A stretch of 51,084 nt of DNA. It comes from Myxococcales bacterium. Its GTDB lineage: Bacteria > Myxococcota_A > UBA9160 > SMWR01. The notes under the pieces were generated by a model. The model ran no database searches. It worked only from the letters and a program-made list of their open reading frames with translations, and was not told the origin of the DNA. The position numbers and the translations under genes were made by a program. Each line of letters begins with the position of its first letter. The first letter of the stretch is position 1. The stretch spans positions 1-51,084 of the forward strand of contig JAOUNA010000004.1 of the NCBI GenBank assembly GCA_029881215.1, read 5' to 3'. Positions 29,739 to 49,753 of this stretch are shown in pieces.

Positions 29739-29806
29739 TTCGGCCTCTCCGCCGCGCGCAGCATAGCCCAGCCTCCCGCTGGGATTGTCCGCCCCGCTCG
29801 GCGCGG

Positions 29807-31312: not shown

Positions 31313-31341
31313 GGCGCTTTCAGCGCGCGGAGGTCGCAGCC

Positions 31342-31812
31342 ATGAGAGATGTATTCCGAAGACACGGGTCTCGACGAAACGCAGTGCGGCGCTGGACGCC
31401 GGGGGCGGCGCTCGTCGCCAGCCTCGCGATGGCGCATGTGTCGCCCGCGTTCGCGCGACCGGACGTCCCCGACGAGATTGCGTCCAAGCCGAACCCCGCG
31501 GTTCTGGACGGAGACGAAGTTCGTTACTACGAGCGGCAGTATCGGGGCAAGTGCGCGCGCTGTCACGGCGCCGACGGATCCGGCGGCGGCGAAGAGGCGG
31601 CCGCGCAGGCGGTGCCGCCCGCGAACTTCACGGACGCCGCCTTCATGGCGAGTCGCAGCGACGGGCAGTTCTTCTACCAGATCCTGATGGGGGGCGGCAC
31701 GCGCTGTGCGATGCCGGCCTTCGGGCCGGAATCCGATTCCGGCTGGAGCGAAGAGAAGATCTGGCACATGGTCGCGTTCGTGCGCCGCTTTGCCGCGACG
31801 CCGGCGCATTAG
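31342..31812 (+). CDS. Exported class I-type cytochrome c
   Basis: Signal peptide; YRGKCARCHGADGSGGG...GGGTRCAMPAFGPESDSGWSEEKIWHMVAFVR. Confidence 0.85.
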   Translation: MRDVFRRHGSRRNAVRRWTPGAALVASLAMAHVSPAFARPDVPDEIASKPNPAVLDGDEVRYYERQYRGKCARCHGADGSGGGEEAAAQAVPPANFTDAAFMASRSDGQFFYQILMGGGTRCAMPAFGPESDSGWSEEKIWHMVAFVRRFAATPAH

Positions 31813-31838
31813 CGCGCCATCGACGGCGCGGCGCGCTA
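31810..31838. terminator. Bidirectional hairpin embedding both convergent stop codons
   Basis: TAGCGCGCC-n11-GGCGCGCTA; the TAG arms are the stops of 31342..31812(+) and napB(-). Confidence 0.55.
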
Positions 31839-32375
31839 CTTCTTGGCCTCGCGCTTCACCGCCACGAAGGTACTGGCCGGCGTCGAGACATTCGTCGCCT
31901 GCGGCGTGTGACACATCACGCAGTTGTAGCGCGTGCCGGGAACATCCTTTGTGGCGCGGTAGCTCCGAATCACCCAGGCCATCGGATTTCCCTTCTCGCC
32001 CGGGCCCATCACCGCGCGCTGGAAGTGGCTCTTCGGAAGCGGCGCATCGTCCGCGCTCGTCGCGTTGTCCGGGTGGTGGCAGTTCAGGCATTCGTTGTCG
32101 TTGGCCGTGATCGGCAGCATGTCGGCCACCGAGTGTGGAATCTGAGGCGGAGCATCCGGAAAGGCGCGCTCGAGCCGGGTGGACTCTCCGGCGTCGGTCT
32201 CCGGATACAGCGGGATGGCCTGATTCGACAGCTCGGCGAGGTCCGCGTCGCGGAAGTACACGTCGAGACCGTCGTCTACCTCTCCGGCCTGGCTCTGCAG
32301 CGCGGATCCCAGCGCCAGCACGATCGAGAGCGCGAGGATTCCGTGCCACCGGTTGGGCTGCAATGAGCGGTGCAT
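31836..32375 (-). CDS. napB: NapB, diheme cytochrome c subunit of periplasmic nitrate reductase
   Basis: Signal peptide; two CxxCH (CLNCH, CVMCH); PPQIPHSVADMLPITANDNECLNCHHP typical of NapB. Confidence 0.92.
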   Translation of the reverse strand: MHRSLQPNRWHGILALSIVLALGSALQSQAGEVDDGLDVYFRDADLAELSNQAIPLYPETDAGESTRLERAFPDAPPQIPHSVADMLPITANDNECLNCHHPDNATSADDAPLPKSHFQRAVMGPGEKGNPMAWVIRSYRATKDVPGTRYNCVMCHTPQATNVSTPASTFVAVKREAKK

Positions 32376-32488
32376 GCTGATCTCCTTCTTGGACTGGATT
32401 CGCTGCGCCTCGGTGTCGGCGCGGCGCGCATCGCGACTTGGTTGTGACGTGCGCTCGTGAATCGGGTCTTGCGCTGTCTCCAGCCAGC

Positions 32489-33283
32489 TCACGGCTCCTC
32501 GATTCCCGTCAGATCGTTCATGTCCCGAAGCACAGCGTCGAGGTGGCTCGCCCAGCTGGGGTGATCGGGCCCCCGCTGCGGCGCCGTGAAGTCCACGGTT
32601 CGGCGCGTCCCGCGCGCCGCGTCGGGACGAGCCTCTTCCTCGGCTCGTGGTCGGGCGAGCGCAGTGGGCAGCACGCGGATGGCCGCTTCGTCGAGAATGC
32701 ACGCGTGCTCGCAGCGGCCGCAGCCGGTGCAGTGATCCGCGTCCACCAGCGGCCGGAATCTCGCGCGATTCTCGGGGGACCGCGCAGCCTGCAGCTCGAG
32801 CCGGAGTGCCCTGCCCGTGAGCGGACACGCCCGGTAGCAGGCTTCGCAGTCCTGTCCGCGGCTGGCGAGACAGCTCTCCGGCGCCACGAGGACGGCGAGG
32901 CCCATGCGCGCATCTGCGATCGCCGTGCGCTTGTCGAGCGCACCGGTCGGACAGGACGCGATGCACGGGGCGTCATCGCACAGGAAGCACGGATTGCGTC
33001 GCGCCTCGAAATAGGGTGCGCCCGGAACGCGTTCGGCTCCGCTGCCCGCCAGGGCGAGCGTGTCGAACGGACAGGCCTCGACACAATCGCCGCAGACCGT
33101 GCAGCGCGCCAGGAATTCGCCCTCCTCGCGCGCCCCCGGTGGGCGCAGCCGGTGCGGGTCGCCGCGCGCCCTGCTGAACGCGCGTGGCGCATCCACGGCG
33201 CGGTCGGCGGCCGGCGTCCCCTGGCGCCTGCGAAACGCGCCCGTCAGCAAGTCGCGCCGCGTGAGCTCGCTGCGCCTGCGCAC
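32489..33283 (-). CDS. napG: NapG/NapF-like ferredoxin-type protein (four 4Fe-4S clusters)
   Basis: CTVCGDCVEACPF, CFLCDDAPCIASCPT, CLASRGQDCEACYRACPL, CTGCGRCEHACIL; twin-arginine-like LTRRDLLTGAF. GTG start two bases from the napA stop. Confidence 0.85.
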   Translation of the reverse strand: MRRRSELTRRDLLTGAFRRRQGTPAADRAVDAPRAFSRARGDPHRLRPPGAREEGEFLARCTVCGDCVEACPFDTLALAGSGAERVPGAPYFEARRNPCFLCDDAPCIASCPTGALDKRTAIADARMGLAVLVAPESCLASRGQDCEACYRACPLTGRALRLELQAARSPENRARFRPLVDADHCTGCGRCEHACILDEAAIRVLPTALARPRAEEEARPDAARGTRRTVDFTAPQRGPDHPSWASHLDAVLRDMNDLTGIEEP

Positions 33284-33285
33284 CG

Positions 33286-35892
33286 CTATGCCTTTCCGAC
33301 CTTCACCGCGCACTTCTTGTAATCCGTCTCCTTCGAGATCGGGCAGGTGGCGTCGAGCGTCAGCTTGTTGATCAGGACGTTCTCGTCGAACCACGGCACG
33401 AAGACGAGTCCGCGCGGCACGCGATCCCTTCCCTGTGTCTCCAGCCGCGCCTTGACCGCGCCGCGCCGCGACTCCAGCAGCACCTCGTCGTTGCGCTTGA
33501 GACCGCGCGCCTCGGCGTCGGCGGGGTGCATGTAGCACTTGGCGTAGGGAACGGCGCGGTTCAGCTCCGGCACGCGCTTGGTCATGGTGCCGGAGTGCCA
33601 GTGCTCGAGCACGCGTCCCGTGCAGAGCCAGAGGTCGTACTCGGCGTCCGGGCTCTCGGCCGGCTCCGCGTAGGGTCGGAAGAAGATCTTCGCCTTGCCC
33701 TTGTGCGAGAACTGCTCTCCGGTCGGACCTCCCGACGGAATCGTCTTGAACGCCTTGCCGTAGAAATTGAAGTCCTCGCCCGACTTGACGTACGGATCGT
33801 ATCCCTCGCGGAAGCGCCACGGCGTCTCGCGCCCGCCGACCACCGGCCAGCGCAGACCGCGGACCCGGTGGTAGGTGTCGAAGTCGGCCAGGTCGTGACC
33901 GTTGCCCTGGCCGAACTGGCGATACTCCTCCCACAGCGCCTTGTGCACGAAGAAGCCCGCGTCTTCGGCGACGTCGTTCGCGTGGCCGTCCGCGATGGGA
34001 TCCGGCCATGCGACCTTCGCGAGTTCCTTGCGGGCGAAGAGCACTTCGTAGAGGGTCTGCTCCGGGTCGTACCCCATCTCGCGCGCACCGGCGAGCACAT
34101 CCGGCAGCTTGCCCTTCTCGAAGCCCTCGACGTCGAGGCCGGGCAGCGGCTGCTCCTTCCAGACCTCCTTCAGCTTGAAGCGCTTGGAGAACTCGAGGAT
34201 CTGCCAGAGGTCGGCCTTGGCTTCGCCCGGGGCCTTCACCTGCTGCCGCCAGTGCTGCGTGCGCCGTTCGGCATTGCCGTAGGCGCCCCACTTCTCGTAG
34301 ATCATCGCGACCGGCAGCACGAGATCCGCCAGCTTGGCGGACACCGTCGGGTAGGCATCCGACACCACGATGAAGTTGTCGCCTTCGCGGGCCGCGCGGA
34401 TCCACTCGTTCGCGTTGGCGAAATCCTGGAAGGGATTGGTGACCATCGCCCAGAAGAAGCGCACCTTTCCGCTGCGCAGATCGCGCACCATCTGCACCGC
34501 GTGCGTTCCCACCTTGGGATTCAGCGTCCCGGAAGGGAGGTGCCAGAGCGCTTCGGTCTCCGCGCGATGTTCGGCATTTCCGACGACGCGGTCGGCCGGC
34601 AGTCGGTGGGCGAAGGTTCCCACCTCGCGCGCCGTGCCGCAGGCCGAGGGCTGTCCGGTGAGCGAGAAGGCGGTGGAGCCGGGCGTTGCGATCTTCCCGG
34701 TGAGGAGATGAATCATGTAGGCCTGCTCGTTCACCCAGGTGCCGCGCGTGTGCTGGTTGAAGCCCATCGTCCAGAGGCTCACCACCTTGCGCTTCGGATC
34801 CGCGTAGAGCTCCGCGAGCGCTACCAGCTTCTCTTCGGGCACGCCGGAGAGCTGGCTCACGTAGGCCGCCGTGTAGGGTGCGAGCTCCTTCGCGAATGTC
34901 TCGAAGGAGATCGACCAATGCGCACCCGCCTTCCCGCGCATCGACTGCCCCGCCTCGCGCGGGTGATCGTCCGGTAGCCCGTAGCCGATGTCGGTGGGTC
35001 CCGCCGCGAAGATGCAGTGCTTGTCGACGAACTTCCGGTTCACGGCGCCCTTCTCCACGATGTGACGCGCGATGAAGTTCATGATCGCGAGGTCGGTCTG
35101 CGGCTTGAAGATCAGCTCGAGATCGGCGCTGTCGCTGCTTCGGTTGGTAAAGGTCGAGAGGTTCACGATCTTCATGTTCGGGTGGGTCAGCTTGCGATCG
35201 ATCACCCGGGACCAGAGCATCGGGTGGCATTCCGCCATGTTGGCGCCCCAGAGGACGGCGGTATCCGTCAGCTCGATGTCGTCGTAGCAGCCCGGCGGCT
35301 CGTCGATGCCGAAGGTCTGGATGAAGGCCGCCACCGCCGAGGCCATGCAGTGCCGGGCGTTGGGGTCGAGGTTGTTCGAGCGCACGCCGCCCTTCATGAA
35401 CTTCGCGGCGGCGTAACCCTCGTCGATGGTGTACTGGCCCGATCCGAAGATGGCGACGCTCGCCGGGCCGTACTCGCCGTAGTACTTCTTGAACCGGGCC
35501 TCCATGACGTCGAAGGCCTGCTTCCAGCTCACCGGCGTGAACTGACCCTGCTTGTGGGGCTTCCCGTCCTTCATGCGCAGCAACGGCTTCGTGAGTCGAT
35601 CCGCGCCGTACATGATCTTCGCGTTGAAGTAGCCCTTGATGCAGTTGAGGCCTCGGTTGACCGGCGATTCGGGGTCGCCCTTGACGGAGACGATGCGCCC
35701 GCCGCTGGTGGCGACCATGATTCCGCAGCCGACCCCGCAGAAGCGGCAGACCGACTTGTCCCACTTCCAGTTGGACTCCTTCTCCCATTGCTCGGCCGCG
35801 GCGCGCGAGGCCTTCGGAACGGAGAACCCCAGGCTGCTCGCCACCGAAGCGGCGACGGCGGTCTTGATGAAATTTCGCCGGGTCTGATCCAT
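33286..35892 (-). CDS. napA: Periplasmic nitrate reductase catalytic subunit NapA
   Basis: TAT signal [70 protein letters not shown] Mo-Cys region. Confidence 0.97.
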
Positions 35893-35905
35893 GCTTGCCT
35901 CCGCG

Positions 35906-36139
35906 CTAAGTGGCTTCGACGCAGTACTGGGCGAGCTCGGCCATCAGGACGCGAGGCAGACCCTGCAACTGCTTGAGTCGTTCGATGCTCTCGTCGACGT
36001 CGGCCGCCTCGATCGTGACGACCAGCCGGCCCGCGGGCTCCGTGTGGTGGACGCTCGCCCACGCAAGACCGTCGACCACCGCGATCGTGGCTGCGAGGTC
36101 TTCGGGCCGACAGGCCATGACGATTCCCGAGATGTTCAC
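35906..36139 (-). CDS. napD: NapD chaperone
   Basis: 77 aa [51 protein letters not shown], immediately upstream of napA. Confidence 0.9.
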
Positions 36140-36271
36140 GCGGACCCGTCCTGGCCGCGAGGCAAACAGGCCCGGGCGAGTGCATGTGCCACGGCGTTCC
36201 GCAATCCAGGCGCTCTGGTTGCGGGCGATGCGGTCGCGAGCGGCATGAAGTGCGTCCAGTCAGGGCAGATT

Positions 36272-37549
36272 CTACACAACGGAACGGGCTCGGAAACGCA
36301 TGGTTCCCGCGGTCACGGACAGGGCGACCTTCACCATGGCGGTGAAGAGCAGCGCCCCGATCGCCCACACCCCCGCCGCGACGGCGACTTCGTTCAGGCT
36401 CGGGTTGTACGTGTAGGTCTCCCCGAGCACGTCGGGCGTCATGCCGGGGAGCAGCAGTCCGAGCCCCTTCTCTACGAAGACACCGCCGATCGCCAGGATG
36501 CACGCGCCGACCAGCACGGTCAGCTTGCGCCGCAGCACGGGAACCATGAAACCGATGAAGGCGGTGAAATTGCAGGCCAGGGCCGTCCAGGAGTAGATGG
36601 CGATGTCCTTGCGCTCGTGCGTTCCAAACCACTGGAGATGGGCGTGGATGGAGTGCGCGGTCTCGCCATAGAACTCGGTGAAGACCTCGACTCCGAGAAA
36701 GAAGAGATTGACCGCCATCGCGTACGCGAGCAGCTCTCCCACCTTGAAGAGCGTGTGTTCGGAGACGGGGAGTCTGCCGATCTTGCGCAGCACGAGGAAG
36801 ATCAGCACCAGCAGCGCCGGGCCGGAGCAGAAGGCACTCGACAGGAAGCGCGGCGCGAGAATCGCCGTGTGCCAGAAGGCCCTCGCCTTGAGGCCCATGA
36901 AGAGCATCGCCGTCACGCTGTGGATCCCGACCGCCATCGGGATCGAGAGAAAGATGATGGGCATGATGAAGTTTGCGTTGTATTTCTGCCCCGTGTAGCC
37001 CATGTAGAGCAGATACGTGACGATGAAATAGTTGATCAGGAAGTAGCTGCTCAGCACGAGCACGTCCCACATCAGCATCGAGTGGGGAAAATTCGGCGTC
37101 CCCAGCCCCGGCATCATGTGCCAGACCACGTGGGGGCGGCCGACGTCTACCGTCACGAACAGGATGCACATGACGATCGCGGCGACCGAGAGGATCTCGG
37201 CGAGCAGGACCACGTCTCGAATCGGACCCCAGTTGTAGATGTAGGCGGGGATTACGAGCACCACGGCCGCGGCCGCGACGCCGACGAGGAAGGCGAAGTT
37301 CCCGATGTAGAAGCCCCACGAGACCTGATCGCGCATGTGCGTGGTGATGAGGCCGTGGCTCACCTGGTTCGCGTAGGCGCTCACGCCGCTGCCGATCACG
37401 AGCAGCAGGAAGACGATCCACGCGTAGTAGGGGCCATTGCCGCGGCTCACGACGCCGGCGCTGTCCAGGATGAAGCGGAGGAAGATCCTGGGCCACGACC
37501 ACTGCGGCTGCGCTGCGCGCCAGCTCTGCTCGTCGGACATCGAGTTCAC
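36272..37549 (-). CDS. NrfD/PsrC-family quinone-interacting membrane subunit
   Basis: Multi-TM; YYAWIVFLLLVIGSGVSAYANQVSHGL...VSWGFYIGNFAFLVGVAAAAVV; VTVDVGRPHVVWHMM. Confidence 0.9.
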   Translation of the reverse strand: MNSMSDEQSWRAAQPQWSWPRIFLRFILDSAGVVSRGNGPYYAWIVFLLLVIGSGVSAYANQVSHGLITTHMRDQVSWGFYIGNFAFLVGVAAAAVVLVIPAYIYNWGPIRDVVLLAEILSVAAIVMCILFVTVDVGRPHVVWHMMPGLGTPNFPHSMLMWDVLVLSSYFLINYFIVTYLLYMGYTGQKYNANFIMPIIFLSIPMAVGIHSVTAMLFMGLKARAFWHTAILAPRFLSSAFCSGPALLVLIFLVLRKIGRLPVSEHTLFKVGELLAYAMAVNLFFLGVEVFTEFYGETAHSIHAHLQWFGTHERKDIAIYSWTALACNFTAFIGFMVPVLRRKLTVLVGACILAIGGVFVEKGLGLLLPGMTPDVLGETYTYNPSLNEVAVAAGVWAIGALLFTAMVKVALSVTAGTMRFRARSVV

Positions 37550-38481
37550 CCGTAGAAGTAGAAGAATTTCGGCTGCGTCTTGAGCTCAGCCTTGAGTACG
37601 AAGGTTCGCTTCGTGCGCATCAGCGTTCGAATCTCGCTGTCCGAATCGAGGAGATTGCCGAACTTACGCGCGCCGACAGGGCATGCCTCGAGGCAGGCCG
37701 GATAGCGCCCGTCGCGCACCCTCTGGATGCAGAAGCTGCACTTCTCCACGACGCCTGCCGTGCGCGGACGATTTCCGAGCAGGTGCATGTTCGGGTTGAT
37801 TTCCTCGGCGGGAATGCTCGGCTCGGTCCAGTTGAAGTGTCGCGCGCCGTAGGGGCAGGAGGCCATGCAGTAGCGGCATCCGATGCACCAGTCGTAGTCG
37901 ATCACGACGATGCCATCGGGTTCGCGCCAGGTGGCCCCGGTCGGGCACACGTTGGTGCACGGCGATTCCTCGCAATGCTGGCACGCCACCGGCAGATAGA
38001 TCTTGTCTGCTGCGGGCACCTGCTCGTGATCGTAGTAGGGGTTTCCGTCTTCCAGATCGAAGCCGCGTACGATTGCCTCGCGCTCGAACTCGAGCACGCG
38101 AATCCAGTGGATCTGCGGGTCTCGGGATTGGTTGTTCTCGTCCACGCAGGCGTAGACGCATCGGCGGCAGCCGATGCAGCGCGAGATGTCGAGTCCGTAG
38201 CCGTAGAGGACGCCATCCATGGGACCCGTGGCGTGAACGCTGACTTCCGCGCCGTACTGCTTCGAGTATCTTCGCGAGAGGCGCTTCACCACGTCGTCGA
38301 TTTCTTCGTCCGAGAGCTCGCGGAAGTTCTTCTGGAAGAAGCTCTCCAGGTCGAACTCGAGCGCCTGAGCCGCTCCCGGCGCCCCCGCGAGCGCGCCGAC
38401 GGCGACGGCGCCGGTGCGCAGGAACTCGCGCCGAGAAGCGCCGCGGACCGGCCCTTCCGATTTCTCACTCGGCTTCGTCAT
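37546..38481 (-). CDS. TAT-exported 4Fe-4S ferredoxin subunit (NrfC/HybA/DsrO-like)
   Basis: RREFLRTGAVAVGALAG; CIGCRRCVYACVDENN, CQHCEESPCTNVCPT, CIGCRYCMASCPYGARHF, CSFCIQRVRDGRYPACLEACP. Confidence 0.92.
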   Translation of the reverse strand: MTKPSEKSEGPVRGASRREFLRTGAVAVGALAGAPGAAQALEFDLESFFQKNFRELSDEEIDDVVKRLSRRYSKQYGAEVSVHATGPMDGVLYGYGLDISRCIGCRRCVYACVDENNQSRDPQIHWIRVLEFEREAIVRGFDLEDGNPYYDHEQVPAADKIYLPVACQHCEESPCTNVCPTGATWREPDGIVVIDYDWCIGCRYCMASCPYGARHFNWTEPSIPAEEINPNMHLLGNRPRTAGVVEKCSFCIQRVRDGRYPACLEACPVGARKFGNLLDSDSEIRTLMRTKRTFVLKAELKTQPKFFYFYG

Positions 38482-39100
38482 GCGCTCTCGCTTCGCTCGC
38501 GCTCCCGTTCAACACGATCTGCTCCGGCCTCACTGGCGGCGGCTTCGGGGCAATCGGCGCGAAACGCGGTGCGTGGGGATTGTGACAGAAGACGCAGGGT
38601 TGATATTCCTTGGGGCCCCGCCAGTGGCCGGTGCGCTTGCCGTGCACGCCGGCCCGCCAGTCCGCGAGCTTCTTGCCGTGACATTGCGTGCAGAGCTGCC
38701 ACGAATCCTCGAAGGCAATGAGTGATCCGTCCGCGAGCCGGAGCTTCTCCCGATTGTGCAGATCGTGACACTGCAGGCACCACAATTCGCCATGCGCGAC
38801 CTTCATCGCGTCGTGCTCTTCCTCGAGCTTCCGCCGCTCCGGATTCGGCACTTCTTCCGCACCGTGACAATCACCGCAGGGGACGAATTCGTCGTTCATG
38901 GGCGGCGGCGGCAGGAGCACGGCCTCGCCGTCCGCGATCAGCGCGCGGCTCGGGTAGCTTCGGCTCGTGTCCGGCTGGTGCTTCGTGCGCAGCGAGATCA
39001 GGAAGACGATCAGCAGCAGCGCAGCGCCGAGCAGCAGCCACGTCGTGAGCTGGTAGGGCGGTGGGCGGTAGTCGTGCTGCTTCGAGGGGTCGGGCTCCAC
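38465..39100 (-). CDS. Membrane-anchored tetraheme cytochrome c
   Basis: N-terminal TM (TTWLLLGAALLLIVFLISL) and four CxxCH (CGDCH, CLQCH, CTQCH, CVFCH). Confidence 0.9.
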   Translation of the reverse strand: MEPDPSKQHDYRPPPYQLTTWLLLGAALLLIVFLISLRTKHQPDTSRSYPSRALIADGEAVLLPPPPMNDEFVPCGDCHGAEEVPNPERRKLEEEHDAMKVAHGELWCLQCHDLHNREKLRLADGSLIAFEDSWQLCTQCHGKKLADWRAGVHGKRTGHWRGPKEYQPCVFCHNPHAPRFAPIAPKPPPVRPEQIVLNGSASEARAHDEAE

Positions 39101-39102
39101 GC

Positions 39103-39789
39103 TCAGTCGGCCTCGCCTTCACCTCTCGGGTCGTAGCTCTCGGGAACCGGGTGCGCGATCGCGGCGGCGGCCTGCTCGAAATCGAAGCCCACCTTGCTGC
39201 CGTCAGCACGCGTGTAGCGCTCCGGGTTCCAGGCGGGGCTGTCTTCATTGTGACAAGTCACGCAGTTCTCTTCCACCGGGAGGATCAGGCCCTTCGAGAG
39301 GGCGAGCTCGCGATTCATCATGATCTTCTTCTTGCGGTAGTCCTCACCGGGTCCATGGCATGCTTCGCACTGCACGCCCTGTGTCCGATCGAATTTCATC
39401 GATAGTCGCTCCTGTGAAACGCCATACGCCGTGACGTGACATTTCACGCACCTGGCATCGTTCTGGGGATCGCTGACGCCGGCCTCGGCGGCCCATTTTG
39501 CGGACTGCTCGCTCGCGAGCGTCTCGTAGGCCTTTGCGTGCCGGCTCTCGAGCCACTTTCCGTACTGGTTGCCGATCGTATCCTTCTTGTGGCAGGTCTT
39601 GCACTTGCTGGCGCCGACGTACTCGCGCCCCTCGTGCTCGTCGTCGTGGTCCGCGCTGGCGGCCGCGGGCAGCACCAACACGAGGAGCGCAGCGGGTACG
39701 CCCAGCGCGGCCAGTCGCCACGAGCGGGCGCGCCAGAGGCGGACGCAAGATTCGAAGGCGTCGAGAGTGCGACGCGAGACGATGCTCAT
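39103..39789 (-). CDS. Exported tetraheme cytochrome c, cytochrome c554-like
   Basis: Signal peptide; YVGASKCKTCHKKDTIGNQYGKWLESRHAKAYETL; CKTCH, CVKCH, CEACH, CVTCH. Confidence 0.87.
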   Translation of the reverse strand: MSIVSRRTLDAFESCVRLWRARSWRLAALGVPAALLVLVLPAAASADHDDEHEGREYVGASKCKTCHKKDTIGNQYGKWLESRHAKAYETLASEQSAKWAAEAGVSDPQNDARCVKCHVTAYGVSQERLSMKFDRTQGVQCEACHGPGEDYRKKKIMMNRELALSKGLILPVEENCVTCHNEDSPAWNPERYTRADGSKVGFDFEQAAAAIAHPVPESYDPRGEGEAD

Positions 39790-39907: not shown

Positions 39908-41593
39908 TCAGTAGATGTCGTGGACCGTGTTGTAGACGTTCCACTTGCCGGTCGGTGTGACCAGCCAATCTGCCGCGATGCGCTGCTTTTCCTTCAGGGT
40001 CTTGTCGTCGTAGATGATGATTTCACCCTGCTTGTCCCAGACTGACGTCCACACCTCGTCGCCCGCCTTGTTGTATTCGAAGTGCACGATCTTACCGTGG
40101 TCCGTCGCCTTCCAGCAATTCGCGCCCGCGTCGAAGTCATCCTTTCGGAATACGCAGATCTTCTGGTTGGCGCCCTCTTCCTTCGAGAGCGTGGCGTCCG
40201 TCCAGATGTGGTTGCTCTTTGGATGGGTCTTCAGGAAGAGGCCCGGTCCGCCGGTTTCCTCGTCGCGCACGATCTTCCAGGCGTGCTCCGGGTGGCCCGC
40301 GGGATCCGAGCCGAACACGGTGATGAGCCCCTCGCCCAGATGGGTCGTCGCGCTCACCGGACCGTACTCGGGATCGATCCAGTTGGCACCCCGCCCGGGA
40401 TGCGGCTTCACGCCGGTCTCGAACTTGGTGACGAACTTCTTCTCCTTCGTGTCCACCACCACCATCTGATCGCGCATGTTGGCCGCGATCAGCAGGTAGC
40501 GCCCGCTGGCATCGAAGCCGCCGTCGTGCAGAAAGCGCTCGGCTTCGATCTGCGTCATGCGCAGATTCTTGAGATCGGAGTAGTCCACCAGCCAGATCAG
40601 CCCCGTCTCCTTGATCGCGACCACCCATTCCGGGTCCGCGTGAGAGGCCACGATCGTCGCCACGCGCGGCTCCGGATGGTATTCGTTGGTGTCGTACGTG
40701 GAGGAGCGGGTCGAGACCACCTTGAGCGGCTCGAGGGTCTGCCCATCCATCACCACGAGCTGCGGCGGCCAATAGCAACCCACGACAGCCAGCTTGTCCA
40801 CGAAGTCGCCCTTCGGGCCCTTGTACTTCGAGACCTCGACGGAGCGCGCGTCGAGGCACACGCGACCCTCGGCAACGACGCGGGGCTTCTCTTCGTAGAG
40901 GTCGATGAGGCTCACCTTGCCGTCGCGACCGATCGTGTAGAAGTAGCGACCGGTTCCGGAAGCGCGGAAGATGTGGACCGCGAAGCCGGTGTCCACGATG
41001 CCCATCAGCTCCTTCGTGTCGCCGTCGATGATGGCTCCCTTTCCGGCGTCGCGCAGGATGAAGCCGAAGAGGTTGTCGATGTTGCGCTTGTGAAGCGGCT
41101 TCAGCGGCCGCTGCGCCACGGGCACGTGCAGCTTGTGGGCGGCCTTCATCTCCTTGAGGCCCATCTCCGGCGGGACGGGGGCGGGCATCTGCAGATACTT
41201 CGCCATCAGCTCGGTCTCGCCCCGGGTCAGCTCGCCCGTGCGACCCCAACCCGGCATGCCCGCGTCCGTGCCCTCATAGATCGTCTTCTCGAGCTTGGCG
41301 AGCGTCTGCTTCGTCATCGTCTCGTCGGTGATGTTGGGCCCCGTGGCGCCCTTGCGAAGCGCGCCGTGGCAGCCCGAGCAGCGGTCGAAATAGATGAACT
41401 TCGCCTGCTCGAACGCCTCGTCGCTGAGCTGCGGTGTCGCCCCTGCGCCCGCGGAGCTGGCTGCGCCGAGCGCGACCAGCGCCGCGCAGACGAAGCCGGC
41501 AACGCGACCCATGCCGGGCGGCGCGCCGCGCCTGGGTGCGGCGCGGTCTGCGCGCCCGTCCCGTGCCCCCGGAAACCATCCTGCAACCTGCAT
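39908..41593 (-). CDS. nirS: Cytochrome cd1 nitrite reductase NirS
   Basis: CSGCH heme c domain; d1 propeller (LAVVGCYWPPQLVVMDGQTLEPLKVVSTR, VNEYHPEPRVA-like, HPGRGANWIDPEYGPV); ends PTGKWNVYNTVHDIY. GGGAGGAAGC precedes the ATG at 41593; alternative start 41512. Confidence 0.95.
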   Translation of the reverse strand: MQVAGWFPGARDGRADRAAPRRGAPPGMGRVAGFVCAALVALGAASSAGAGATPQLSDEAFEQAKFIYFDRCSGCHGALRKGATGPNITDETMTKQTLAKLEKTIYEGTDAGMPGWGRTGELTRGETELMAKYLQMPAPVPPEMGLKEMKAAHKLHVPVAQRPLKPLHKRNIDNLFGFILRDAGKGAIIDGDTKELMGIVDTGFAVHIFRASGTGRYFYTIGRDGKVSLIDLYEEKPRVVAEGRVCLDARSVEVSKYKGPKGDFVDKLAVVGCYWPPQLVVMDGQTLEPLKVVSTRSSTYDTNEYHPEPRVATIVASHADPEWVVAIKETGLIWLVDYSDLKNLRMTQIEAERFLHDGGFDASGRYLLIAANMRDQMVVVDTKEKKFVTKFETGVKPHPGRGANWIDPEYGPVSATTHLGEGLITVFGSDPAGHPEHAWKIVRDEETGGPGLFLKTHPKSNHIWTDATLSKEEGANQKICVFRKDDFDAGANCWKATDHGKIVHFEYNKAGDEVWTSVWDKQGEIIIYDDKTLKEKQRIAADWLVTPTGKWNVYNTVHDIY

Positions 41594-41774
41594 GCTTCCT
41601 CCCATCGCGCGCTTCCGGAGCTCGGCTCGATGCCGGCTCCGGTGCGCTGTGTACGATCTGGGAGCTGCGATGTCTCGCGGATGTGGCGATTTGACCCCTA
41701 TCTCGCGAGCCAGGCGCCGCCCCCGTGGTTCCACCCGTTTTCCCATGATTCCCCTTGACCCGCTGCGCGGATTC

Positions 41775-41811
41775 TACATAATCGATAAAAAGATCTCTAG
41801 ATCTATTTATC
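41775..41811 (+). promoter_or_regulatory. Shared AT-rich regulatory element, copy B (nirS/oxidase divergent promoter)
   Basis: TACATAATCGATAAAAAGATCTCTAGATCTATTTATC; 30/37 match to 24393-24429; contains inverted repeat GATAAAAAGATC-tcta-GATCTATTTATC (11/12 arms). Confidence 0.7.
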
Positions 41812-41822
41812 GGGGATTGATC

Positions 41823-43300
41823 GTGTTACCCGCCCGCGCTCTCGAGCCCCTCGCGCCGCCGGAGGCGCGCTGCGCCCGCGCGTGGCTCGCCCTGGCGCTC
41901 GGCGTCCTGGTGATCGCGGGGCTGTTCGCGCTGGTCGTGGTGATCGGACGCATGCCGCCCTTCGATCGGCTCGTGACGGATCCTCTCTTCTTCAAGCGCG
42001 GTCTGGTCGTGCACGTGAATCTCGCGCTGGTCGCGTGGTTCTATTCGTTCATCGCCGCGCTGCTCTTCCTGATGCCGGGCCGCCGCGCGCCGGGTCGCGT
42101 CGCGCGCGCTTCAGTTCATCTCGCGGTCCTCGGCGTGCTGATGATGCTGATGGCCGCCGCGCTACCGGGCACACGTCCGGTGCTCTCCAATTACATTCCG
42201 ATGATCGACCACTGGCTGTTCGGCATCGGGCAGGTCGCCTTCGGCGCCGGTGTGCTGGCGAGCTTCGTGGGTCGGCGCCTCGTCAGCGCGCCGCGCGCCG
42301 CGGGAGTGGTTGTGCCACTGCCCGACGCCGCCCGCTCGGGGCTGCGCACCACCGCCGCCGCACTGCTTCTCGCTGCGCTCACCTTCAGCATTGCCTGGTG
42401 GAATCTCCCCGGCGGCGTGGCGCCCGAGGTGCGCTACGAGCTGCTCTTCTGGGGCGGTGCCACGTCCTGCAGCTCGCGTGCAGCGCGGCGATGGTGAGTG
42501 TCTGGCTCGTGCTGCTCACGTCCCTGCTCGGGCGATCGCCGGTGAGCGCCCCCGCCGCGACCGCTCTGTTCGCGCTGCTGTTCGCGCCGTGGACCTTCGC
42601 ACCGCTGCTCGCGCTCGAGGGAGCCTGGACTTCGAGCTATCGCGCAGGGGTGACGCATCTGATGCAGTGGTCGATCTTCCCGGTCGTCAGCATCTTCCTG
42701 GTGCTGTGCGTCGCCGCGCTGCACCGGGCCTGGCGCGCGGGCCGGCTGGATGCGGGCGCCTTCGCGGATCCGCGGCTCTCCGGCTTCGCGGTGAGCGCCG
42801 CGCTCACGCTGCTGGGCTTCGCGCTGGGCGCGGCGATTCGCGGCTCCAATACGATGGTGCCCGCGCACTACCACGCCTCGATCGGCGGCGTGACGGCGGC
42901 GTTCATGAGCACGACCTACGTGCTGCTGCCGGCGCTCGGCTTCTCGATGGAGACGCGCCGCGTGCGCCGCGCCGCAGCGTGGCAGCCCGCGCTCTACGGC
43001 ATCGGCCAGATGGTGTTCGCGAGCGGTTTCGCGCTGGCCGGCGCGTACGGGATGACGCGCAAGAGCTACGGCGCCGAGCAGGCCGCGCGTGGACTCGCGG
43101 AGAGCGTCGGTCTCGGCGTGATGGGCCTCGGCGGATTGATCGCCGTCGCGGGCGGACTCCTGTTTCTCGGCCTCGTGGCCGCCGTCTGGTGGCGCGGCGC
43201 CGGGACTTCTGCTCAGCGCGCCTCGCAGCGCGCCGGAGGCACCTGGAGGTATCGATGGGCTCGACAGACCGGGATCGAAAGCATCCGATCCAGAGATTGA
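41823..43300 (+). pseudogene. Heme-copper oxidase subunit I-like membrane protein interrupted by an apparent 1-nt deletion near 42460
   Basis: Frame 1 through ...RYELLFWGGA, then HVLQLACSAAMVSVW... continues in another frame. Joined product carries GGAHVLQL...AMVSVW and NTMVPAHYHASIGGVTAAFMSTTYVLLP. Could be a sequencing error. Confidence 0.8.
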
Positions 43301-43426: not shown

Positions 43427-43954
43427 ATGAGCATCTATTCGCCGCCGGCCGACTGGTTCAAGGCGCCGAGCGGACCCGAGCGACTGTGGGTCGGACTCGC
43501 GCTGATCTGGTGCATCGTGATGTTCATCGCGATGCCGTACTGGCATTTCTACGGCAAGCAGAATTCGACGGGAGAGGCCTACGCGGTCGAGCCCATGACC
43601 TTCATGCAGCGGACGATGCAGTTCGCCGACGCGCACAAGATCCGCGAAGAGAGCGGCGTGCCGGTCGCCGAGGTGCCGCCCGGCGGAGACGCCTATCTGC
43701 TGGCCAGGATGTGGTCCTTCTATCCGGTTCTGCAGCTGCGCCTCGGGCAGACCTATCGTCTGCACATCTCGTCGCTGGATCTGCAGCACGGCTTCTCGCT
43801 CCAGCCGCTCAACATGAACTTCCAGATCCTGCCGGGGTACGACCACGTGTTGACCGTCACCCCGACGAGCACTGGAGTCTTTCCCATCGTTTGCAACGAA
43901 TTCTGTGGAATCGGTCACCACACGATGACCGGCCGTATCGTCGTGGTCGAGTAG
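43427..43954 (+). CDS. Heme-copper oxidase subunit II with CuA site
   Basis: N-terminal TM; LDLQHGFSLQPLNMNFQILPGYDHVLTVTPTSTGVFPIVCNEFCGIGHHTMTGRIVV, full CuA ligand set (H, C-x3-C-x3-H-x2-M). Confidence 0.93.
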   Translation: MSIYSPPADWFKAPSGPERLWVGLALIWCIVMFIAMPYWHFYGKQNSTGEAYAVEPMTFMQRTMQFADAHKIREESGVPVAEVPPGGDAYLLARMWSFYPVLQLRLGQTYRLHISSLDLQHGFSLQPLNMNFQILPGYDHVLTVTPTSTGVFPIVCNEFCGIGHHTMTGRIVVVE

Positions 43955-43963
43955 GAGGCAATC

Positions 43964-45697
43964 ATGAGCACAGCCGTCATCGGAGAGAGTCTTCCCGTTT
44001 CGGGCAATCACCCGGCCGCTCTCGTGCGCAGCTGCGATACGACGTCGCTGCCGGTGTGCCTCTCGGCGCAGCGCTTCGTCAAGCTGCACGCCGTGGCCGC
44101 CGTGGTCTTCCTGCTCGTCGGTGGCATCGGGGCCATTCTGCTCGGGCTCACCCGCTGGCCCGCGGTCCACCTGCTGAACGCCGAGTGGTACTACCGCGTG
44201 TTGACGCTTCACGGCCTCAACATGTTGATCTTCTGGATCCTGAATTTCGAGATCGCGATCCTCTACTTCGCCGGGACGGTTCTGCTCAACAGCCGGCTCT
44301 TCTCGAAGGGCCTGGCCTGGGTGGGCTTCCTGCTGATGCTCGCCGGAGCGCTCACGGTGAACGTGGCAATCATGCAGGGGCGCAGCGACGTGCTGATGAC
44401 GTCGTACGTTCCGCTGAAGGCGGCGCCCAGCTTCTACCTCGGGATCATCCTGATGGCGGTCGGAGCGCTGATCGGCGTGATCAACTACTTCGGCACGCTC
44501 TACATCGCGAAGCGCGATCGCACCTACACGGGCTCGGTTCCGCTCGTGGTCTTCGGCGCCACGGCGGCGGCAATCATCGCGGTGGTGACGCTCCTGCACG
44601 GCGCGATCGTCATGATTCCCACGTTCTTGTGGTCGATGGGCCTCGTCGAGAGCGTCGATCCCTCCTGGTACCGGATCACCTGGTGGGGACTCGGACATAT
44701 GTCGCAGCAGGTGAACGTCTGCGCGATGGTCTCCGTCTGGTATCTGCTCGGGACGCTGACGACGGGCTCGAGGCCGCTCAATCAGGCCGTGTGCCGCGGC
44801 GCCTTCGTGCTCTACATCCTGTTCATCAACCTCGCCTCGGCCCACCACCTGCTGGTGGACCCCGGCGTCGGGGCCGGTTGGAAGATCTGGAACACCTCGT
44901 ACGCGATGTACCTCGCGGTGCTGGCGTCGATGATCCACGGCTTCACCGTGCCCGCGTCGGTGGAGGTTGCCATGCGCAAGAAGGGCCACGATCGGGGGCT
45001 CTTCGGCTGGCTGTTCGCCGCCCCGTGGAGCAACCCCGGCTTCTCCGGCTTCTTCCTGTCGCTGGTGATCTTCGGCTTCGGAGGCGGCATCACCGGCGTC
45101 GTGCTGGGAACGCAGCAGATCAACATCATGGCCCACAACACGCTGCGCATTCCCGGCCACTTCCACGTCACCGTGGTGGGCGGCACGACGCTCGCCTTCA
45201 TGGCGCTCACCTACTACGTGGTGCCGCTGCTGTTCCAGAAGGAGTTCTACGCCAAGGCGCTCTGCCGGATTCAACCCTACATCTTTGGTCTGGGCATCAC
45301 GCTCGCGGCGCTCGGCATGTCGTTTGCCGGCTCCTATGGGGTGCCGCGCCGCCACTGGGACGTGGAGTTCACCGGCAGCCTGTTCTCGACCGGCTTCGAC
45401 TCTGGTGCGCACGTCATGCTCGGAATCCTGGGCATCGGCGCCGTCATCGCATTCATCGGCCTGATGCTCTACATCGGACTCGTGGTGGCCGCGGTCTTCT
45501 TCGGCCGCTCCAATGCGGGTCGCGCCATGGAGCCCTGGCACGAGGAGGCGCCGGCCGCGGGACCCGCGCTTCCCGAGGGCGAGGCCGAGCACCGGGTGCC
45601 GGGCACGGTGGCCCTCGTGATCGTGTTCCTGCTGACCTTTGCGGTCTACTACTTTGCCAATTGGAAGTGGCTGAGCGATGTCTGGGAGGTGCGCTAG
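43964..45697 (+). CDS. Heme-copper oxidase superfamily subunit I lacking the catalytic Tyr; eNOR-type NO reductase candidate
   Basis: LHGLNMLIFW low-spin heme His, WWGLGHMSQQVN (CuB His, +4 is Gln not Tyr), ASAHHLLVDPG (CuB HH), IPGHFHVTVVGGTT (heme ligands). Confidence 0.85.
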   Translation: MSTAVIGESLPVSGNHPAALVRSCDTTSLPVCLSAQRFVKLHAVAAVVFLLVGGIGAILLGLTRWPAVHLLNAEWYYRVLTLHGLNMLIFWILNFEIAILYFAGTVLLNSRLFSKGLAWVGFLLMLAGALTVNVAIMQGRSDVLMTSYVPLKAAPSFYLGIILMAVGALIGVINYFGTLYIAKRDRTYTGSVPLVVFGATAAAIIAVVTLLHGAIVMIPTFLWSMGLVESVDPSWYRITWWGLGHMSQQVNVCAMVSVWYLLGTLTTGSRPLNQAVCRGAFVLYILFINLASAHHLLVDPGVGAGWKIWNTSYAMYLAVLASMIHGFTVPASVEVAMRKKGHDRGLFGWLFAAPWSNPGFSGFFLSLVIFGFGGGITGVVLGTQQINIMAHNTLRIPGHFHVTVVGGTTLAFMALTYYVVPLLFQKEFYAKALCRIQPYIFGLGITLAALGMSFAGSYGVPRRHWDVEFTGSLFSTGFDSGAHVMLGILGIGAVIAFIGLMLYIGLVVAAVFFGRSNAGRAMEPWHEEAPAAGPALPEGEAEHRVPGTVALVIVFLLTFAVYYFANWKWLSDVWEVR

Positions 45698-45730: not shown

Positions 45731-46669
45731 ATGAACGCCGTGCGCGGTGTACTCGAGCGGATCCGATGCTTCATCGAGGGTGGGGGCTTTCCTGCCACGA
45801 CGCTGTGTCTGATCGTCTTCTACGAGCTGCTGCTGCTGGGTCTGCTGCTGACGCCGCCCGGCGGCGGCGAGCTCGGAGATTTCGCCGAGGAATTTCGCGT
45901 CTGGTGCTTCGGCTACGACCCCGCAACCGGCGGCATGCAGTGGGCTTATGTGATGGCCATGCTGGCCCCCCAGCTGATGCTCGGGGCCGTGGTGGCACTG
46001 TTCTGGTGGGAGCCGCTGCGCGCCGTATGGGCGCAACCGCGCCGCTTCGCGCGCTACGCAGCGGCTGCAGCCGCGCTGATCGCGGTGCTTGCCTCGGGAA
46101 TGATCGCTCTCGGCTCGGCACCGGCGCGTGGCGAGCTGCCGTTTCCGGCGGAAGCGCTGCGCACGGCCCAAGCGGCGCCCGAGCTAACGCTCGTCAACCA
46201 GGCGGGCGCGCGGATCGATCTGGCGTCCATGCGCGGCAAGGTGGTGCTGCTCACCGCCATGTACGCGACCTGTGGTCACACCTGTCCGTTGATCCTGGCG
46301 CAGTCCAAGGCGGCCGTCGGCGCGCTGACCGACGCGGAGCGCGAGGATCTTCGCGTCGTTGCGGTCACGCTCGACCCGGAGCACGACAGCATCCAAGTGC
46401 TCGCCCAGCTCGGTCGGCTGCAGTCCCTTTCCGCGCCTCTCTACAACCTGGTGACGGGGGATCCGGTCGCGGTGGGGCGCGTGCTCGACAAGATGGACGT
46501 CGCCCGGTCGCGCGATCCCGAAACGGGCATCATCGATCACGCGGCGGTCTTCCTGCTGATCGACCGCGGGGGCCGCGTGGCCTATCGGCTGGGCTTGGGG
46601 CCGCGCCAGGAGCGCTGGCTGACCACCGCGCTGCGCGTGCTGCTCCAAGAGCCGATCGCGAGCGGATGA
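45731..46669 (+). CDS. SCO1/SenC-type copper chaperone with N-terminal membrane helices
   Basis: MYATCGHTCPLILAQSK (CxxxC), GIIDHAAVFLLIDRGG (Cu His); ~3 hydrophobic helices N-terminal. Confidence 0.87.
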   Translation: MNAVRGVLERIRCFIEGGGFPATTLCLIVFYELLLLGLLLTPPGGGELGDFAEEFRVWCFGYDPATGGMQWAYVMAMLAPQLMLGAVVALFWWEPLRAVWAQPRRFARYAAAAAALIAVLASGMIALGSAPARGELPFPAEALRTAQAAPELTLVNQAGARIDLASMRGKVVLLTAMYATCGHTCPLILAQSKAAVGALTDAEREDLRVVAVTLDPEHDSIQVLAQLGRLQSLSAPLYNLVTGDPVAVGRVLDKMDVARSRDPETGIIDHAAVFLLIDRGGRVAYRLGLGPRQERWLTTALRVLLQEPIASG

Positions 46670-46673
46670 GTCG

Positions 46674-48821
46674 ATGTCGCCGCCGCCCGGCAACCCGCTG
46701 GCGCCCGGCGTCGATGGCGCGCAGGAATTTCGCGTGTTGAGCGGTTCGCAGAGCTCCGGCGCGGAGGCGCCCGAGATCCACGTCGAGCCGGTGCTGCTCG
46801 GCGACCGCGCCCTGCGCGTGCTCGAGAAGGGATTCCTGCATCTCGATCGTCTGGTAACGACTGCGCTGCCGGCAGCGTTCAATCCGTTTCAGCAGACGGG
46901 TGCCATCGCGATCACCTCGCTGTCGGTCGCCACCGTCACCGGTATCGTGCTGCTGCTCTGGTACAAGCCGAGCGTGCACCTGGCCTACACGTCCGTCACC
47001 GCCATGTCCGAGGCGCCCTGGACGGCCGGTCTGATGCGCTCGCTGCACCGCTACAGCTCGGATGCCTGCATGTTCTTCACCCTCGTGCACGCCTGCCGTG
47101 TGCTGTTCGAGCGCCGCGTCGGCGGGGCGCGCTGGCTGGCCTGGGTGACGGGCATGGCGCTGATCGGCGTGCTCTGGTTCACCGGCTGGACGGGCTACTG
47201 GCTGGTCTGGGATGAGCGGGCTCAGCAGGTGGCGGTGGGCAGCGCGCGTCTGCTCGACGTGCTGCCCATCTTCATCGACCCGATGGGCCGCTCCTTCCTC
47301 ACCGACGCGAGCGTCAACTCGCTGCTCTTCTTCGTCGTCTTCTTCGTGCACATGCTGGTGCCGTTGGCGATGGCGCTCTTTCTCTGGTTGCACATCGCGC
47401 GGCTCGCCCGCGCCCGCTATCTGACGCGCGGCGCGATGACCGGCTGGGTGCTCGCCTCCCTCGTTCTGATGAGCCTCGTCCTCCCCGCCGACAGCGCCGA
47501 GCCGGCGCGCATGGCGGTGCTCCCGCAGTCCTTCAGCATGGATTGGTGGTATCTGATGCCCCTCGTCCTGACCGACCGGCTCGGCGGCGGCGCGCTCTGG
47601 GCGGTGCTCCTGACGACCGGCGCGCTGGGCTTCTCGGCGCCGTGGTGGATGGTGCGCGGGCAGCCGCGGCCCGCGCAGGTCGTGGTGAGCCGCTGCAACG
47701 CGTGCATGAAATGCTTTCAGGACTGCCCCTACGAGGCGATTTCCATGGTGCCGCGCAGCGACGGGACGACCCGGCATGCCCTGCAGGCCAAGATCGATCC
47801 GGCCAAGTGCGTGGGTTGCGGAATCTGCGCGGGCTCGTGCGACACCGCGGGCATCGGGCTCGACTGGTTCGGGATGGTCGAGCAGCGCAAGCGCATGGAT
47901 GACTGGGTGGCGCAGGCCGTTGACGCGAACAGCGCGCCGCACGTGGCTTTCGTCTGCGCGGAATCCGCCGCCGCGAATCTGCGCATCGATCGCGCGTCGG
48001 GGCAGTGCGCGGAGCTGCCGGGCTACCGCGTGCTCGAGATACCGTGCGCGGGCTGGGTGCATCCCCTGCTCGTCGAGCGCGCGCTGCGCCGCGGCGCGCT
48101 GGGTGTCGTGATCCAGAGCTGTGGACCCGGGGAGTGTCGTTATCGCGAGGGCGCCGAGTGGACACGGCTGCGCCTCGCGGGCGCGCGCGAGCCGGCGCTG
48201 CGAGCCGACAAGATCGAGCCGGAGCGGGTGCTGCTGCTCGAGCTGGATCGCACCCGCACGCGCAATCTCGTGGCGGCGGCGAACGCGTTTCGCGCGCGCG
48301 GCAGCGCGCCGGGGATGTGGCGTCTGCCCGCGCGGCTGGGCGGTCTGGCGGCGGCGGGGCTGGCGGCGCTCTGCATCGGCGTGACCTGGCTGATCAGCGA
48401 CCTCGTCTACGCGGCGCCCGGCCTGCAGGGCTCCGAGCTGGTCGTGACGTTCAAGCATCCGGGCGTGGTGAGCGAGGACTGTCGCGTGCGGACGCCGGAG
48501 GAGCTCGCCGACCTTCCCGCGCACATGCGCCGGGCGGAGGTATGCGATCGCATGCGCGCCGACGTGCGTCTGCAGGTGAGCGTGGACGGTGAGCCGCGCG
48601 TGCGCGCGAGCTTTCGGCCGAAGGGGATCTGGCATGACGGCAACAGCATCGCCGTCGAGCGCGTTCCCGTGGCCCCCGGCGAGCACCGCGTCCGCGTTGC
48701 GATCGGTGACAGCGTCGCTCCCGACGCCTGGCAATTCGTCACCGAGCAGACGCTGCGCTTCGAGCCGGGGGCGCGCCGCGTTCTGGTCTTCGACCGATTG
48801 TCCGGCTTCAGCTGGCACTAG
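46674..48821 (+). CDS. Multidomain fusion: cytochrome b (two heme sites) + 2x[4Fe-4S] ferredoxin + MvhD/FrhD-like iron-sulfur domain + C-terminal TM and exported domain
   Basis: LHRYSSDACMFFTLVHACR and VHMLVPLAMALFLWLH heme pairs; CNACMKCFQDCPYEA, CVGCGICAGSCDTAG; VAFVCAES...IPCAGWVHPLLVERALRRGALGVVIQSCGPGECRYREGAEW; then TM and ~120-aa tail. Confidence 0.88.
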   Translation: MSPPPGNPLAPGVDGAQEFRVLSGSQSSGAEAPEIHVEPVLLGDRALRVLEKGFLHLDRLVTTALPAAFNPFQQTGAIAITSLSVATVTGIVLLLWYKPSVHLAYTSVTAMSEAPWTAGLMRSLHRYSSDACMFFTLVHACRVLFERRVGGARWLAWVTGMALIGVLWFTGWTGYWLVWDERAQQVAVGSARLLDVLPIFIDPMGRSFLTDASVNSLLFFVVFFVHMLVPLAMALFLWLHIARLARARYLTRGAMTGWVLASLVLMSLVLPADSAEPARMAVLPQSFSMDWWYLMPLVLTDRLGGGALWAVLLTTGALGFSAPWWMVRGQPRPAQVVVSRCNACMKCFQDCPYEAISMVPRSDGTTRHALQAKIDPAKCVGCGICAGSCDTAGIGLDWFGMVEQRKRMDDWVAQAVDANSAPHVAFVCAESAAANLRIDRASGQCAELPGYRVLEIPCAGWVHPLLVERALRRGALGVVIQSCGPGECRYREGAEWTRLRLAGAREPALRADKIEPERVLLLELDRTRTRNLVAAANAFRARGSAPGMWRLPARLGGLAAAGLAALCIGVTWLISDLVYAAPGLQGSELVVTFKHPGVVSEDCRVRTPEELADLPAHMRRAEVCDRMRADVRLQVSVDGEPRVRASFRPKGIWHDGNSIAVERVPVAPGEHRVRVAIGDSVAPDAWQFVTEQTLRFEPGARRVLVFDRLSGFSWH

Positions 48822-48829
48822 GAGCAACC

Positions 48830-49753
48830 GTGAGCGCCACCCATCCCGTTTCCCTGTCGACTCTTGCGCTGCAGCGCGGCCGTTCGCGGGCGGCGGCTCG
48901 CGTCCTGGACTACGTCGCACTGACCCGACCCCGGGTGCTCTCTCTCGTGCTGTTCACCGCGCCGCCGGCGCTCTTTCTGGATGCCGGTCGCTGGCCGGGT
49001 GCCACGCCGCTGATCGGCGTGGTGCTCGGCGCGGCACTGGTGGGCGGTGCATGCGGGGCATTCAATGCGTACATCGAACGCGAGCGCGACGCGCGCATGG
49101 CGCGCACGCGCAGCCGACCGCTGCCCACCGGGCGCCTCGCGCCGCAGCAGGCGCTCAAGTTCGGAGTCCTCGTTGCCGGGCTGGGACTGGCGATCCTGCT
49201 CGGCGTCGGCGGTTGGCTCTCGGCGCTGATCGGCGCGCTCACGTTGGCGCACTACGTGGGCATCTACACGCTGTGGCTCAAGCCGCGCACCCCCCAGAAC
49301 ATCGTGATCGGCGGCGCCGCCGGCGCGGCGGCTCCGCTCATTGCCGATGTCGCCGTGGACGGACGGCTCGGCGTGTGGGGCATCGCGCTCTTCGCGATCA
49401 TCTTCCTGTGGACACCGCCCCATTTCTGGGCCATCGCCCTGTACCGCAAATCGGAGTACGCCGCCGCGGGGTTTCCGATGATGCCCTGCGTGGTCGGCGA
49501 CGTGGCGACGCGCCGGCGCATGCTCGCCTACGCGATCGCGCTGCTGCCGGTGACGCTGCTGCCCTGGCTCGGCGGCGCGCTGGGGTTGCTCTACGCCAGC
49601 GTCGCACTGCTCAGTGGAGCGGGGTTCATCGCCAGCATCGTGCGCGCCATGCGGGCGGATTCGAGAGATCAGGACCGGCGCGTGTTCTTCGTGTCCATCC
49701 AGTATCTCGCGCTGCTCTTCGGCGCGATGCTCGTGGATCTCGCTCTGCGCTGA
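48830..49753 (+). CDS. ctaB: Protoheme IX farnesyltransferase (heme O synthase)
   Basis: DYVALTRPRVLSLVLFTAP; AFNAYIERERDARMARTRSRPLPTGRL; FLWTPPHFWAIALYRKSEYAAAGFPMMP. Confidence 0.95.
   Translation: MSATHPVSLSTLALQRGRSRAAARVLDYVALTRPRVLSLVLFTAPPALFLDAGRWPGATPLIGVVLGAALVGGACGAFNAYIERERDARMARTRSRPLPTGRLAPQQALKFGVLVAGLGLAILLGVGGWLSALIGALTLAHYVGIYTLWLKPRTPQNIVIGGAAGAAAPLIADVAVDGRLGVWGIALFAIIFLWTPPHFWAIALYRKSEYAAAGFPMMPCVVGDVATRRRMLAYAIALLPVTLLPWLGGALGLLYASVALLSGAGFIASIVRAMRADSRDQDRRVFFVSIQYLALLFGAMLVDLALR

Follow-up and report, generated by a model that had tools for sequence, protein, structure and literature searches.

What does a protein that joins a cytochrome b, two [4Fe-4S] clusters, an MvhD-like domain and an exported tail contribute to a cluster of nitric oxide (NO) reduction genes? 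Such a protein is encoded in a 51,084-nucleotide stretch of DNA from a Myxococcales bacterium (contig JAOUNA010000004.1; hereafter, the window), where an open reading frame (ORF) of 715 amino acids, already called in a first-pass annotation, occupies exactly positions 46674–48821 of the forward strand. That annotation had read the protein as a quinone-coupled electron hub that exchanges electrons with a cytosolic low-potential partner and is possibly new to denitrification. The adjoining oxidase-type genes appear to encode an eNOR, a recently recognized NO reductase that is widespread in N2O-making bacteria and whose electron delivery and assembly are unsettled; the fusion protein would be either its missing electron donor or its missing maturation reductase.

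Modules and conserved residues of the fusion protein

The fusion, which was delimited by ORF, Pfam, orthologue alignment and AlphaFold, begins with a cytochrome b core (residues 65–326, positions 46866–47651; this and all further parts are on the forward strand) of six transmembrane (TM) helices. The core is recognized by Pfam (Cytochrome_B at residues 65–244, E = 6e-17), by a profile search against the PDB (cytochrome b6, E = 1e-33) and by Foldseek, in which approximately 300 residues of the AlphaFold model match bc1 cytochrome b (best E = 1.9e-6). This model was built from 52 family members and has a mean pLDDT of 91 and a pTM of 0.88. The core is followed by a 2[4Fe-4S] ferredoxin domain (residues 338–391, 47685–47846; Fer4/Fer4_7 at residues 340–391, E = 6e-8) and by an MvhD/FlpD domain (residues 424–541, 47943–48296; FlpD at E = 1.6e-16), and all three Pfam matches lie above the curated cut-offs. 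Hence, both the cytochrome b fold and the MvhD-type domain that had been proposed were recovered by HMM searches, the FlpD domain in 38 of 52 family members at E ≤ 0.001. A last TM helix (residues 553–575, 48330–48398; AlphaFold and topology prediction) leads into a tail (residues 576–715, 48399–48818) that is confidently predicted to form a beta-sandwich (pLDDT 92), for which neither fold nor sequence searches of the PDB returned a significant relative and no Pfam family matched. Judging from the helices and loop charges, the ferredoxin and MvhD part is predicted to be cytosolic and the last 140 residues periplasmic; the final TM helix and exported tail of the first-pass annotation are predicted with high confidence.

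We counted ligand conservation over 78 full-length fusion orthologues. The two haem pairs (H125/H139 and H226/H240, ligands of haems bL and bH), each with the spacing of 14 noted at the outset, are invariant in 78/78 orthologues, as are the eight ferredoxin cysteines (C341/344/347/351 and C379/382/385/389) of the two [4Fe-4S] clusters. The motif DWWYLMP (residues 290–296, 47541–47561) does occupy the position of the bc1 PEWY motif, as had been suggested: in a 52-row alignment, D290 and P296 are invariant and Y293 is nearly so, and the Glu of PEWY is absent from the DxWYxxP motif in the 78 rows of fusion orthologues. This degenerate Qo-type motif suggests that a bc1-like quinol site is kept only in part. 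In the periplasmic tail, H617-M618-R619 (the HMR motif) is retained by almost every orthologue and also by versions that are approximately 31–36 per cent identical. No orthologue (0/78) has a CxxCH motif for c-type haem, and the fusion has no periplasmic redox domain (c-haem or Rieske) able to feed CuA directly.

The MvhD domain is conserved differently. Both motifs by which it had been noticed (IPCAGWVHP and QSCGPGECRY) align to the structurally known MvhD 5odc_D (E = 7e-7), with C458, C483 and C488 falling on cysteines of that protein. All four MvhD cysteines are present in the window's protein and in the Myxococcota fusions but not family-wide (C428 in 68/78, C458 in 61/78, C483 in 61/78 and C488 in 18/78 orthologues). 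A verrucomicrobial clade (Opitutales/Pelagicoccus) has mostly Ala, Thr or Asp at these positions, whereas every haem and [4Fe-4S] ligand is retained. Because the MvhD cysteines are lost in this clade, an MvhD cluster cannot be the shared function of the fusion. Exchange with a cytosolic low-potential partner through the MvhD domain cannot be the conserved function either; the fold is ancestral, and possibly redox-competent in some members.

Gene cluster and co-inheritance with eNOR

The gene order around the fusion is that of a haem-copper enzyme cluster: a CuA subunit II with a CxxxCxxxHxxM motif (43427–43954; Pfam and motif; CNEFCGIGHHTM), a catalytic subunit I (43964–45697; Pfam and alignment), an SCO copper chaperone with conserved CxxxCP and His ligand (45731–46669; Pfam, topology and alignment), the fusion, and a CtaB/CyoE haem o synthase (48830–49753; Pfam), all on the forward strand. 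Subunit I has Gln at CuB-His+4 (GHMSQQVN), and the pattern GHxxQQ[VI]N is found in 63/63 aligned sequences, which is the eNOR signature, defined by Gln replacing the active-site Tyr at that position (PMC8756737 Table A4). The NO reductase activity of eNOR was characterized by Murali 2024 (cited in PMC11388526). By its signature, then, the enzyme beside the fusion is an eNOR, with its CuA subunit directly upstream of subunit I. Orf1 of the ammonia-oxidiser norSY-senC-orf1 cluster was considered as a candidate identity for the fusion and set aside, as the enzyme of our cluster has the eNOR Gln and not the sNOR Asn.

The oxidase-type subunit I, SCO and CtaB had been named correctly as neighbours, whereas the CuA subunit and several genes upstream of it had gone unmentioned. 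One of these is COX1b, a second oxidase-superfamily subunit-I-like gene (41745–43300, forward strand; locus comparison) that is frameshifted near 42450, either by a sequencing error or by a real lesion. COX1b precedes the CuA subunit in 49/58 testable loci and is intact in L002, L005, L012, L077 and others. Its product retains the histidines that bind the low-spin haem, the one that binds the high-spin haem and one of the CuB set, while the HH pair is lost (the second position being mostly Pro); without two of the three CuB histidines, it should have no normal CuB site and would be a conserved degenerate haem-copper homologue. A cytochrome cd1 nitrite-reductase-type protein (39908–41746, reverse strand; Pfam) lies further upstream, and beside the cd1 and eNOR genes the interval 26312–39789 forms a denitrification island with siroheme decarboxylase AhbA/AhbB (26312–28513), a NirJ-like radical SAM protein (28536–29738), NapA (33286–35892; 1410 bits, the cut-off being 904), DsrP/NrfD-type (36272–37549) and DsrO-type (37546–38481) proteins, and multihaem cytochromes. 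The Pfam-scanned neighbours in the window include no Rieske domain, and the scanned cluster genes no hydrogenase or HdrABC partner, as the first-pass annotation had also remarked. The cluster SCO has a multi-TM N-terminal extension with a conserved Trp-Cys/Val-Cys motif (45731–46000 in the window; also in L121, L142 and L193), whereas an ordinary SCO is single-TM.

To place the cluster in a wider context, we examined 80 homologous loci from many phyla, found by homology, and took positional counts only where enough upstream DNA exists. SCO lies directly upstream of the fusion in 74/76 testable loci, and further upstream are eNOR subunit I (62/64) and subunit II (59/62), giving a conserved order of eNOR II – I – SCO – fusion. 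Among 284 genomes of the window's phylum, the fusion occurs in 42, eNOR in 40 and both in 39, and in the four genomes with only one of the two that gene lies at a contig end; the 14 further genomes reached through the loci all have eNOR. Distance matrices of the fusion correlate with those of eNOR (r = 0.90, with 0/2000 permutations as high) and of SCO (r = 0.94), correlations to which shared rates and ancestry contribute. The fusion is thus inherited with one eNOR clade in Myxococcota, Verrucomicrobiota, Rhodothermota, Spirochaetota, Acidobacteriota and Planctomycetota, and homologues fall inside eNOR clusters rather than consistently outside N-oxide gene clusters. Even divergent or split fusions are still beside eNOR (Defluviimonas, L121/L122/L135/L142 and Acidobacteriota L192–L194).

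A few loci depart from this arrangement. The fusion of L024 has neither eNOR nor SCO nearby, and the L024 genome shows no eNOR; that of L136 (the same as L028) also lacks both neighbours, with a complete eNOR cluster elsewhere in the genome. L142, which seemed to lack SCO, has a divergent SCO in place once the strand was read. In L121 (7781–8287) and L123 (6091–6597), an Rrf2-family regulator, a candidate NO-responsive switch, lies between divergently oriented eNOR and fusion genes. Subunit I ends early in four Myxococcota loci (L126, L127, L129 and L130). In several of these the end is a TGA, and a separate small ORF that follows encodes the last TM helix, which looks like gene fission and not like the use of selenocysteine.

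A second eNOR group, approximately 45 per cent identical, comprises Thermus, Thermomicrobium and five genomes of the Rhodothermales phylum, and probably includes Rhodothermus marinus (G516), the source of the characterized eNOR. The clusters of this clade have no SCO, no second subunit-I-like gene and no fusion, and the fusion is absent anywhere in the five genomes of the Rhodothermales phylum. Since these genomes carry eNOR without the fusion, NO reduction as such seems not to need it. The eNOR tree was rooted for drawing only, and gain versus loss of the fusion is not readable from it.

Proposed assembly of the fusion and its possible role

Three states of the protein were observed. In Acidobacteriota L196–L198, a cytochrome b-ferredoxin protein is paired with a separate MvhD protein that has a full-looking cysteine set; there is no tail, SCO or eNOR, and the genes upstream of the pair encode a cbb3 oxidase, c-type cytochromes and a further cytochrome b. 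In L121, L122, L193, L194 and a Defluviimonas plasmid, cytochrome b, ferredoxin and MvhD form one protein, the tail is the next gene, and eNOR and SCO are adjacent. In the main clade, all parts are in one protein. We infer that the fusion was assembled stepwise, in this order. Because the tail is absent from the first state, split beside eNOR in the second and fused in the third, the periplasmic tail is the part specific to eNOR clusters; outside them, 141 genomes of the phylum returned three weak partial matches only. The location of the L196–L198 relatives among cbb3 and cytochrome b structural genes favours a respiratory ancestry. Their cluster has two different cytochrome b genes, one of which carries a 2[4Fe-4S] domain, and may encode an asymmetric cytochrome b complex.

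Taken together, the fusion is very probably a transmembrane electron-transfer protein dedicated to eNOR, although L024 and L028/L136, which carry it without adjacent eNOR, count against such dedication. Our best reading, to which we give an even chance, is that it is an electron-transfer subunit dedicated to the SCO-carrying eNOR clade, on the basis of two bis-His b-haem sites that cross the membrane, a cytosolic 2[4Fe-4S] domain and a Qo-type remnant beside the periplasmic haem site (sequence, alignment and model), and of the co-inheritance with eNOR and SCO. Electrons would run along [4Fe-4S], haem bH and haem bL, in one direction or the other. The putative partner at one end of this path would be either the quinone pool or a donor in the cytosol; at the other end, on the periplasmic side, the beta-sandwich may dock on SCO or on eNOR itself. 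In this view, MvhD would be an ancestral redox module that is now, at least in part, a docking scaffold, and the protein would supply the eNOR system with electrons while it runs, whether for catalysis or in a quinone-linked manner. A role in electron supply rather than in maturation is suggested by the respiratory ancestry and the remnant quinol pocket, and we hold it with a confidence that comes near to even and does not pass it. There is no c-haem or Rieske domain to pass electrons to the periplasmic CuA, the second eNOR clade lacks the fusion, probably in R. marinus too, and the window also contains other genes of quinol-oxidizing type (DsrP/DsrO-like, 36272–38481), all of which argue against supply; a gene so strictly tied to SCO, and placed between SCO and CtaB, would suit maturation equally well. 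A role as replacement for a missing bc1 complex is unsupported, as the genome has two other cytochrome b ORFs (C39 and C65).

By analogy, the fusion could instead be a maturation factor, that is, a transmembrane reductase that takes cytosolic electrons to the periplasm and reduces Cu(II) or the cysteines of SCO or CuA during eNOR assembly. The near-constant SCO gene upstream, the absence of the fusion from eNOR clades without SCO, the SCO–fusion distance correlation and the flanking maturation genes SCO and CtaB all agree with this, and the layout resembles that of the cupric reductase CcoG, which likewise adjoins oxidase genes and contains TM helices along with two tetranuclear Fe-S clusters, ending in a periplasmic Ig-like domain (PMC7558416). 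CrpH, a proposed PepSY_TM reductase, is an earlier example of a haem protein in the membrane that supports haem-copper enzymes (PMC13038864), and the periplasmic HMR motif, retained even at approximately 31 per cent identity, might hypothetically bind copper. However, the tail and TM part have no sequence homology to CcoG/FixG_C (hhalign), and the more distant relatives have no SCO beside them and lie among structural genes for oxidase and cytochrome b. We regard maturation as the main rival, less likely than supply. Less probable still is a low-potential hub, in which the MvhD and ferredoxin domains would exchange electrons with a soluble Hdr-, NADH- or ferredoxin-type partner and be coupled to the quinone pool. 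The MvhD homology, the four cysteines of the Myxococcota members, the separate MvhD proteins of the Acidobacteriota relatives and, elsewhere in the same genome, an HdrA-like ORF that includes an MvhD part (C317, on a separate contig) are in its favour, but the route cannot be general when a whole clade is missing the MvhD cysteines, and the surveyed clusters contain no such cytosolic partner. The hub originally proposed therefore survives in part: its modules are real and linked to an NO reductase, whereas its MvhD cysteines are lost in one clade and its Qo site is partial.

Two further proposals are highly improbable. The redox centres might sense NO or O2 and control eNOR as a regulatory or NO-protection protein, as the Rrf2-family regulator, hemerythrin and DUF542 genes beside some eNOR clusters could suggest; yet the bis-haem and eight-cysteine wiring is invariant, and there is no output domain. 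Alternatively, quinol might be bifurcated at the Qo-like pocket, with one electron going to CuA and eNOR and the other reaching the cytosolic [4Fe-4S] and MvhD centres by way of haems bL and bH. This would be a quinone-bifurcating complex in which an NO reductase replaces Rieske and cytochrome c, and NO reduction would drive the making of a low-potential cytosolic reductant. Against bifurcation as a general rule stand the lack of the PEWY Glu and the loss of the MvhD cysteines in one clade.

Comparison with known systems

The fusion resembles several known proteins in part. With the cytochrome b of bc1/b6f complexes, the fusion shares the fold, four haem ligands, helix order, a GWTGYWLVW-type loop and the remnant Qo motif, but it lacks the PEWY Glu, has its last helices replaced by the ferredoxin, MvhD, TM and beta-sandwich parts, and its cluster encodes neither a Rieske nor a cytochrome c1 partner. 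It is homologous to the MvhD/VhuD/FlpD proteins of hydrogenase–heterodisulfide reductase (5odc_D, with cysteines 458/483/488 aligned); unlike them, its version is membrane-fused, is accompanied in the cluster by neither a hydrogenase nor an Hdr partner, and has lost its cysteines in one clade. In CcoG/FixG, too, TM helices and two [4Fe-4S] clusters are followed by a TM helix and a beta-rich domain in the periplasm, and the gene adjoins a haem-copper enzyme cluster (PMC7558416), whereas the fusion has a bis-haem cytochrome b in place of the CcoG membrane part and an additional MvhD domain, and hhalign gave a probability below 1 per cent for FixG_C homology of its tail.

The closest tabulated protein is RME88945.1, whose cytochrome b6, Fe-S and FlpD domains are joined by a C1 (c-type cytochrome) domain and which is listed without functional description or comment (PMC8756737 Table A3). 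Like the fusion, it combines cytochrome b6, Fe-S and FlpD in one ORF, while its c-type domain is absent here. Beyond this entry, our search of the open literature, which did not extend to the main eNOR paper (Murali 2024) where the genes may be mentioned, returned no description of the fusion, and the suggestion that it is new to denitrification is plausible. The gene is also a marker by which eNOR clusters can be told apart from aerobic oxidases, with which annotation pipelines confuse them. Known eNOR clusters have Gln at His+4, a CuA subunit and, in some, haem o synthase nearby, as does the cluster described here (PMC8756737).
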